Below, one piece after another: positions 49,898 to 51,774 of a stretch of 64,000 nt of DNA (within the stretch, counting starts at the first letter, position 1; each line of letters opens with the position of its first letter). The notes beneath the pieces were generated by a model. It worked only from the letters and a program-made list of their open reading frames with translations. It searched no databases and was not told the origin of the DNA. Position numbers and translations under genes: made by a program. Source of the stretch: Pseudorhodobacter antarcticus (GTDB taxonomy: Bacteria > Pseudomonadota > Alphaproteobacteria > Rhodobacterales > Rhodobacteraceae); the NCBI RefSeq assembly GCF_900110135.1, contig NZ_FOCO01000001.1:1-64000 (forward strand), given 5' to 3'.

Positions 49898-50527
49898 ATG
49901 TTCGATGCAGTCATCTTCGACCTAGACGGCACGCTCTTGGATACCGAGGCGCTGACCCAAGCGGCGGGCATCAAGGCCTTTGCTGATTGCGGCGTCACCG
50001 TCGATCCCACCTTCCTGCACACCCTTATCGGGCGCGATGATAAAACAGGCGCGGGCATCATTCGCGCGCAGTTTCCCGATATGGATTTTGATGCATTTTC
50101 AATTGCTTGGACCTATCAAGTCACCACACATTACGCCGCAGGCATCCCCCTGAAACCCGGCACTCACGCCCTTCTCAGCGCGCTAAAACACCCCATCGCC
50201 CTCGCCACCTCCTCCAGCCGTGCGCAACTGGAATACAAGCTGTCTGTCACCGACATTGGGCCTTATTTCCAGCATTTCGTTACGGTGAACGATGTGCAAA
50301 ACGCCAAACCCGCCCCCGATCCCTTCCTGCTGGCCGCCCGCCTTTTGGGCGTCGACCCCACCCGCTGCGTCGCGTTCGAAGACAGCGAGGCGGGCGCGCA
50401 ATCGGCCCACAGCGCAGGCATGACCGTGGTGCAAATCCCCGACATCAACCCCGCCTCTGGCCGCTTTGCCCACCTTGTAGCACCCGACCTTTTAACTGGC
50501 GCACGCAAAATCGGCCTGCTGCCCTAG
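49898..50527 (+). CDS. HAD superfamily hydrolase, beta-phosphoglucomutase/GS1-like
   Basis: 209 aa. HAD motifs FDLDGTLLDTE (nucleophile Asp), LATSSSRAQLEYKL (motif II Ser), and KPAPDPFLLAARLLGVDPTRCVAFEDSEAG (motifs III/IV). An all-alpha cap follows residue 15. A small phosphate monoester or phosphosugar is the likely substrate. Starts immediately after the aminotransferase stop, so co-transcribed. Confidence 0.87.
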   Translation: MFDAVIFDLDGTLLDTEALTQAAGIKAFADCGVTVDPTFLHTLIGRDDKTGAGIIRAQFPDMDFDAFSIAWTYQVTTHYAAGIPLKPGTHALLSALKHPIALATSSSRAQLEYKLSVTDIGPYFQHFVTVNDVQNAKPAPDPFLLAARLLGVDPTRCVAFEDSEAGAQSAHSAGMTVVQIPDINPASGRFAHLVAPDLLTGARKIGLLP

Positions 50528-50562: not shown

Positions 50563-50666
50563 AGGGTGAGAGGTTGGCGCGGGCAGGTGCCTCGCCAACT
50601 TGGTCAGGTCCGGAAGGAAGCAGCCACAACGAGCCCCACTTGGGTCGATGTCCAGCCTCTCACCCC
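50563..50666 (+). ncRNA. ffs: 4.5S RNA (bacterial SRP RNA, small form)
   Basis: About 104 nt. The SRP core is clear: GGTCAGGTCCGGAAGGAAGC AGCC, containing the GGAA tetraloop and asymmetric bulge that bind Ffh. The outer helix pairs GGGTGAGAGG with CCTCTCACCC. It is not protein-coding despite an overlapping open frame. Ends at 50666 are inferred from the helix, plus or minus a few bases. Confidence 0.93.
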
Positions 50667-50700
50667 AACACGCGCGCGCGCCGCAAACGGGACGCACATC

Positions 50701-51774
50701 ATTAAAACAGACAGCCCCACACTTCTAACCCTCGGCTGGGGTGATGATTTCGCCGACCAACTGACGGTGGATGACGCAGGCCATATCCCCGCACGCGTAT
50801 CCCAAGTACACCGCGACCGCCTTGCCGTCCTCACCCCCGATGGCGCACGCGAGGTGGCGCTGCCCAACGGCCACCCTTCGGGCAGTTTTGCTGTGGGCGA
50901 TTGGGTGCTGATTTCGGCCAGCCAATCGGTGATGCAACGCCGCCTTGATCGGCGCAGCCTGCTGCAACGCCGGGTTCATTCCCGCGCGGGCAGTCGCAAT
51001 ATCGGCGAATACCGCCTCATCGGTGCCAACATCGACACGCTGTTTATCACCACATCCTGCAACGCCGATTTCAACGTGGCACGGGTGGAACGCTACCTGA
51101 CCCTCGCGCATGACGCAGGCGTTGAACCCGTGATTTTGCTCACCAAATCCGACATGGCCGACCACCCCGAAACATACCGCGATCAGGCCCAGGCGCTTGG
51201 CGCAAACCTTGCCGTGGTGCTGCTGGATGCCCACGCGCCCGATGTGCCCAACCGCCTTGCGCGGTGGACGGGCGCGGGCAAAACCGTGGCGCTGTCCGGC
51301 TCCTCTGGCGTGGGTAAAACCACGATCACCAACGCCCTAACAGGTATCGCCGCCGCCACCCAAGGGGTACGCGACGATGATCGCGGCCGCCACACCACAA
51401 CCGCCCGCCACCTTTACGCCCTGCCCACGGGCGGCTGGTTGATCGACACACCCGGCATCCGCGGCCTTGGCGTATCGGACGCAGCATCGGGCATCGACGC
51501 CACATTTGTCGAAATAACATCCCTCGCCGGCACCTGCAAATTCCGCAACTGCCTGCACGAAGGGGAACCCGGCTGCGCCGTCCAAGCCGCGATCACAGCG
51601 GGTCAGATTGACCCCGACCGCCTGTCACGCTGGCGCAAACTGACTGAGGAGGATGCGGTCAACACCGCCACATCAGGCGCCGCGATGGGCAAAGGCTATG
51701 GCATTTCCAAACGGTCCAAAACCACCGCTTTGGCGAAACAAGACAAAGCCGCGAACAAGCACAAAAAACGCTAA
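50701..51774 (+). CDS. rsgA: ribosome small-subunit biogenesis GTPase RsgA, unusual start
   Basis: About 357 aa. OB fold, then circularly permuted GTPase order: G4 LLTKSDMAD, G1 SGSSGVGKTTI, G3 DTPGIRGLG, and a C-terminal zinc motif CKFRNCLHEGEPGC. The frame is open through ffs. Between the SRP RNA and the first conserved residues (LGWGDDFADQL) there is no in-frame ATG, GTG or TTG. The only near-cognate codons are ATC (50698) and ATT (50701), about 30 bases after ffs. Start taken as ATT with low certainty. GTG at 50767 and ATG at 50932 would remove conserved sequence. Confidence 0.7.
   Translation: MKTDSPTLLTLGWGDDFADQLTVDDAGHIPARVSQVHRDRLAVLTPDGAREVALPNGHPSGSFAVGDWVLISASQSVMQRRLDRRSLLQRRVHSRAGSRNIGEYRLIGANIDTLFITTSCNADFNVARVERYLTLAHDAGVEPVILLTKSDMADHPETYRDQAQALGANLAVVLLDAHAPDVPNRLARWTGAGKTVALSGSSGVGKTTITNALTGIAAATQGVRDDDRGRHTTTARHLYALPTGGWLIDTPGIRGLGVSDAASGIDATFVEITSLAGTCKFRNCLHEGEPGCAVQAAITAGQIDPDRLSRWRKLTEEDAVNTATSGAAMGKGYGISKRSKTTALAKQDKAANKHKKR

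Follow-up and report, generated by a model that had tools for sequence, protein, structure and literature searches.

A conserved AUU codon as the probable translation start of rsgA in Pseudorhodobacter

Introduction

Conserved starts at codons other than ATG, GTG, or TTG occur in few bacterial genes besides infC. The start of infC itself is AUU in E. coli, ATC in Streptomyces, and AUA in S. aureus (PMC5472188, PMC13009471). In Streptomyces, IF3 is described as repressing sigR via a GTC start and infC via its own rare start (PMC5472188). Two S. aureus genes, cvfC1 (AUU) and ccpN (AUA), have conserved starts that gave approximately 10% of the AUG reporter output in poor medium (PMC13009471). In E. 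coli, pcnB combines an AUU start with a poor ribosome-binding site (PMC9764084, citing Binns and Masters 2002). Gene finders overlook such rare starts or shift them, a complaint voiced in PMC5472188.

Here, we analyzed the start of rsgA in a 64,000-nucleotide stretch of Pseudorhodobacter antarcticus DNA, which is referred to as “the window”, and in related genomes. The closest parallel to the start proposed here for the genus is E. coli pcnB, another gene outside infC with an AUU codon and a weak site, whose product is thought to be kept low (PMC9764084). The two genes and lineages are different, and the pcnB start was shown by experiment while that of rsgA comes from comparison. As in infC, the proposed codon belongs to the class against which IF3 discriminates, and both genes serve a 30S function (PMC5472188, PMC13009471); however, infC is autoregulated, whereas rsgA would be controlled by the product of another gene. 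Streptomyces sigR, also a gene outside infC, resembles rsgA in having a rare start that is conserved in its lineage (PMC5472188), but its codon is GTC instead of ATT and its repression by IF3 was shown in vivo. The S. aureus genes cvfC1 and ccpN likewise have conserved non-canonical starts outside infC, but these are preceded by extended Shine-Dalgarno motifs (PMC13009471) while the motif of rsgA in the genus is weak. Conserved non-canonical starts are known in these other genes, and rsgA is very probably a new case. The gene concerned encodes a 30S-maturation GTPase, which gives its start codon a natural regulatory meaning. A search confined to open-licence papers found no publication on a non-canonical rsgA start or an rsgA leader open reading frame (ORF), which is weak evidence.

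Results and discussion

The rsgA gene and its reading frame

In the window, all features described here lie on the + strand. The small bacterial SRP RNA gene, ffs, occupies positions 50567–50665 (Rfam RF00169, 53.2 bits with a gathering threshold of 40), and the proposed rsgA coding region extends from ATT to the stop codon (50701–51774). The encoded protein matched the RsgA_GTPase family (Pfam PF03193, 137.1 bits vs a cut-off of 30) and NCBIfam TIGR00157 (133.5 bits vs a cut-off of 100), and it scored under the cut-offs of the narrower families NF008931 (146.2 vs 360) and NF008932 (78.7 vs 483). The gene is intact and single-copy, with one match in the whole genome. Its translation contains, in this order, TKSD, GSSGVGKT, DTPG, and CKFRNCLHEGEPGC, which we take to be the motifs of this protein family. 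Going by these motifs, the protein has the circularly permuted GTPase order (G4, G1, G3), and a zinc-binding Cys/His cluster is present at its C-terminus. Solved RsgA chains match the protein and align over residues 105–318; the structures are uninformative on the N-terminus because their best-matching stretches start no earlier than residue 102.

The conserved N-terminal region begins with the LGW codons CTC GGC TGG (50731–50739), an anchor present in 109 of 110 loci. The proposed start codon, ATT (50701–50703), is located 10 codons 5′ of LGW, and 35 bases separate it from ffs. The initial annotation of this DNA had described the rsgA frame as open through the SRP RNA gene and as devoid of ATG, GTG, or TTG between ffs and LGW. 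Both descriptions were borne out: there is no stop from at least position 50107 through ffs to the stop codon ending at 51774, and the nearest canonical codon 5′ of LGW is a GTG at 50587, which lies inside ffs and 48 codons away. The annotation had also named ATC and ATT at 50698–50703 as the only near-cognate codons in frame. Their placement was right, but ACG at 50692, one base different from ATG, is in the rsgA frame as well.

The start codon in Pseudorhodobacter and its relatives

All nine genomes of the genus that were searched carry rsgA. Eight loci were compared (the window, L002–L007, and L023), the ninth genome (G004) being represented by L008. At the same aligned, in-frame position, the codon is ATT in seven of the eight loci and ATC in the remaining one (L004), and in the alignment of the eight junctions neither GGGA nor the first two bases of ATT/ATC vary. 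Alignment of the ffs–rsgA junction in close relatives, which the annotation had proposed as a check, thus yielded a conserved codon. An in-frame ATG in relatives, which it had regarded as a sign of sequence error, was found in only one genome (G007, locus L006), three codons 5′ of the ATT there and overlapping GGGA. Locus L005 has a TTG five codons 5′ of its ATT and another TTG three codons 5′ of LGW.

The window comes from a draft assembly of 115 contigs, and the unusual codon might be ascribed to a sequencing error or a decaying gene. This explanation is barely conceivable. The occurrence of ATT or ATC in the seven other genomes of the genus indicates that the window codon is not a sequence error, as the eight genomes were assembled separately, and the window protein passes the family cut-offs and contains no stop.

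For comparison outside the genus, a family search matched 216 of 394 genomes, and 83 further loci were taken from the top of the ranking. The set comprised 109 rsgA loci with a usable anchor: the eight genus loci and 101 others, nearly all from Rhodobacteraceae. These 101 are the better-scoring matches and not a random draw; they include L008 from G004 and L019 from another family. The remaining locus (L025) has no xG[WFYH] anchor and was left out of the start-codon counts. The nearest canonical codon within 20 codons 5′ of LGW was TTG in 52 loci, ATG in 41, and GTG in 8, and none was present in 8. The loci with none were 6 of the 8 in the genus vs 2 of the 101 others (Fisher p = 3.7e-7, relatedness ignored). 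Within the genus, only L005 and L006 have one, and the two exceptions outside the genus have an ATG somewhat farther upstream, at 27 (L019) and 25 (L189) codons before LGW. When the range was extended to 30 codons, the numbers without a canonical codon were 5/8 and 0/101.

A tree was built from 48 full-length proteins; the seven that come from the eight genus loci formed one clade (100/100), and the nearest start in the next six rows of the tree was TTG (five) or GTG (one). The single clade indicates that the codon switch was one evolutionary change that has been kept since, and the genus loci are accordingly not independent observations of it. G004 is assigned to the genus, and its rsgA starts with TTG; the protein is 55% identical to that of the window. 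This RsgA groups elsewhere in the protein tree, apart from the other genus members.

Spacing from the GGGA motif

A weak Shine-Dalgarno-like motif, GGGA (50689–50692), is located 12 nt 5′ of the ATT at 50701, counted from first base to first base. The corresponding distance to ATT or ATC is 12 nt in five and 13 nt in three of the eight genus loci. The one-base difference is present even between the close pair L002/L003, and such differences indicate that no constant reading frame is maintained 5′ of ATT. In the family, 96 loci with a canonical codon 6–20 codons before LGW were scored. GGGA was present within 22 nt 5′ of the canonical start in 24 of them, and the distance was 12–14 nt in all 24 (12 nt in 11 loci, 13 nt in 9, and 14 nt in 4); the background, taken from control windows farther upstream, was 53/1414. 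The matching spacing indicates that ATT occupies the place of the TTG, ATG, or GTG of the relatives. In all eight genus loci, the position set by the motif carries no canonical codon and is occupied by ATT or ATC 12–13 nt past GGGA.

The same spacing bears on the two neighboring near-cognate codons, the ATC at 50698–50700, which adjoins the proposed start, and the ACG at 50692. Both are in frame. ATC sits 5 nt past GGGA, an acceptable spacing, and a tandem of ATC or ATT followed by ATT is present in four loci (the window, L002, L003, and L023), while ACG aligns with the ATG of L006. However, the first base of ATC is 9 nt from that of GGGA, outside the 12–14 nt of the 24 relatives. The aligned codon also varies across the genus, being ATT, ATT, GTC, ACC, GCT, ACC, and ATC in the other seven loci, so that GTC, ACC, ACC, or GCT takes the first place of the tandem in four of them. 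The ACG shares its first base with GGGA, and in the three loci where the spacing is 13 nt, its position falls outside the rsgA frame. Initiation at either codon instead of ATT 50701 is therefore quite unlikely.

The predicted Shine-Dalgarno pairing of rsgA in the genus, calculated with an assumed sequence of the 16S tail, is −4.0 to −4.4 kcal/mol (window, −4.0 kcal/mol). This is equal to the family median (−4.0 kcal/mol over 95 loci). The infC gene of the genus differs from rsgA in this respect, since it has a strong Shine-Dalgarno sequence (−8.7 vs −4.0 kcal/mol). The weak pairing counts against the AUU start, as do the canonical codons near the ATT of L005 and L006 and the TTG of G004, although the AUU of E. 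coli pcnB is also described as having a poor site (PMC9764084). In L005, L007, and L023, UCCC directly 3′ of AUU can pair with GGGA in the predicted fold, which puts AUU in or beside a small hairpin; this pairing is absent in the window.

Starts inside ffs or downstream of LGW

The initial annotation had also considered a start within ffs, at the GTG at 50587, which would add to RsgA an extension encoded in the SRP RNA gene. In the window, the frame runs through ffs without a stop. An ATG close to the 3′ end of ffs falls in the rsgA frame of three loci (L004, L005, and L023) but not of the window. In the six loci with an adjacent ffs, the distance from ffs to LGW modulo 3 is 0, 0, 1, 1, 2, and 1, and this variation means that none of the ffs codons stays in frame across the loci. 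In two species, moreover, ffs is not adjacent to rsgA (18.6 kb away in G008 and 11.4 kb in G007) and ATT is kept in both. The rsgA frame of L006 has a stop 25 codons before LGW, and other loci of the family start 6–20 codons before LGW. A start inside ffs is thus highly improbable.

A shorter RsgA beginning at GTG 50767 or CTG 50761, the first codons of their kind after ffs, would lose the LGW motif that is conserved in 109/110 loci. The GTG at 50767, with which the annotation had linked a shorter N-terminus, is placed after LGW and is peculiar to the window, being the only canonical codon at that offset in the eight genus loci. L023 has no canonical codon in the 30 codons scanned downstream. 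A GTG about 10 codons 3′ of the 50767 position is common to six genus loci and absent in the window and L023. We see very little chance that either downstream codon is the start.

The rare initiation codon AUU, another suggestion of the annotation, is strongly supported by the conserved codon, the fixed distance from GGGA, the frame, and the absence of a conserved alternative. From these sequence comparisons, we estimate a probability of roughly 0.85 that rsgA of the genus is translated from the AUU at 50701, or from AUC in one species, at a position set by the weak GGGA motif, and that RsgA is kept scarce. This reading is also favored by the precedents in other bacteria and by the ATA start of infC in 9/9 genus genomes, a sign that such starts are tolerated in the genus. 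Initiation there would give an RsgA with the N-terminus (M)KTDSPTLLTLGW, the initiator Met being either kept or removed.

Possible output and control by IF3

By inference from known cases such as E. coli pcnB, an AUU codon with a weak binding site would mean a low level of initiation and a scarcity of RsgA. On a looser inference, because IF3 discriminates against AUU, AUC, and AUA, a shortage of IF3 relative to 30S subunits would raise the output of RsgA, and plentiful IF3 would lower it. The 30S-maturation factor RsgA would then share control by IF3 with infC, which has an AUA start in the genus. By analogy with the described systems, repression of the genus rsgA by IF3 appears plausible, since infC starts with ATA in all nine genus genomes (L144–L152), behind a strong AGAAGGAAG-type Shine-Dalgarno sequence, and RsgA and IF3 are both described as acting in the release of RbfA from 30S subunits (PMC9032327). 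The support that the ATA starts lend to an IF3-sensitive rsgA is circumstantial. If true, an IF3-sensitive rsgA codon would be a direct regulatory link from subunit maturation to initiation.

In the infC loci L144 and L148, a stop is present two codons before ATA. G005, a genome that is 84% complete, has a second infC-like copy on contig 327 (L153) with an ATA start and an ATG eight codons upstream; this copy may be foreign DNA that was binned with the genome. Rare starts might also have extended to a wider regulon of 30S factors, but this idea found no support, as rbfA starts with ATG in 9/9 genus genomes.

A leader ORF in relatives

Most relatives have a short leader ORF of about 12 codons with a strong Shine-Dalgarno sequence, located 110–170 nt 5′ of LGW (e.g., L121, L125, L126, L157, L163, L169, and L204). 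Under strict criteria (ATG, 10–14 codons, 110–170 nt before LGW, and GGAG), it was detected in 56 of 100 non-genus upstream regions, compared with a mean of 0.15 and a maximum of 1 in 40 shuffles; loose criteria gave 65 of 100 vs 6.3 in shuffles. By a separate set of criteria, none of the eight genus loci has a leader ORF. Leu-Arg-Ala is present in 37 of the leader peptides, and the Arg codon is CGG in all 37. The occurrence of the ORF in relatives suggests that rsgA was under translational control before the codon switch took place.

The pairing tests used 58 leaders, which were left after visual removal of L022, L026, L139, L156, L167, L173, L179, and L199 from 66 candidates. A segment in the ORF (segment 1) and one before the rsgA start (segment 3) both tend to be complementary to a middle segment (segment 2). 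The pairings of a locus with itself were better than locus-swapped ones for both 1:2 and 2:3 (0/20,000 permutations as good). Compared with a shuffled middle segment, the locus's own segment gave stronger 1:2 pairing in 48/58 loci (p = 1.7e-7) and stronger 2:3 pairing in 42/58 (p = 4.7e-5). Within the AGGCA subgroup, the 1:2 effect was modest (266/20,000) and the 2:3 effect was not significant (2224/20,000). Exact matches of at least 5 in both pairings, overlapping by at least 3 on the middle segment, occurred in only 17 of the 58 loci. RNAalifold on a MAFFT alignment of the 58 leaders gave essentially no consensus fold (−0.98 kcal/mol, 3 pairs), and a scan of 12 loci with E values up to 1 gave no Rfam match to the leader.

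The sequences of the clear cases (L132, L181, L204, and L212) suggest a putative translation attenuator of rsgA. In most relatives, translation of the well-initiated leader would break helix 1:2 and free segment 2 to cover the rsgA site (segment 3), and a shortage of initiating 30S subunits would open rsgA. In Pseudorhodobacter, where the leader would have been lost, an IF3-sensitive AUU start would take over the sensing. It is conceivable, although we would lean against it, that two interchangeable devices, the leader attenuator and the AUU start, couple the output of RsgA in Rhodobacteraceae to the capacity for 30S initiation. If so, both devices would be feedback loops on the supply of small subunits. 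That loss of the leader forces an AUU start as a rule is unsupported, as L008, L009, L013, and L128 have no detected leader and start with TTG or ATG.

Separation of ffs and rsgA in two species

In G007 (L215), ordinary-looking ORFs occupy the 11.4 kb between ffs and rsgA. The pattern used found no repeat of the ffs tail there, and the separation is perhaps a rearrangement. In G008 (L214), approximately 18.6 kb is inserted at the 3′ end of ffs, between ffs and rsgA, and the ATT of rsgA persists. The insert is flanked by two copies of the ffs-tail sequence and begins with a tyrosine integrase; ffs seems to have been used as an integration site in this genome. The insert also carries type I restriction-modification genes and a RhuM-family gene.
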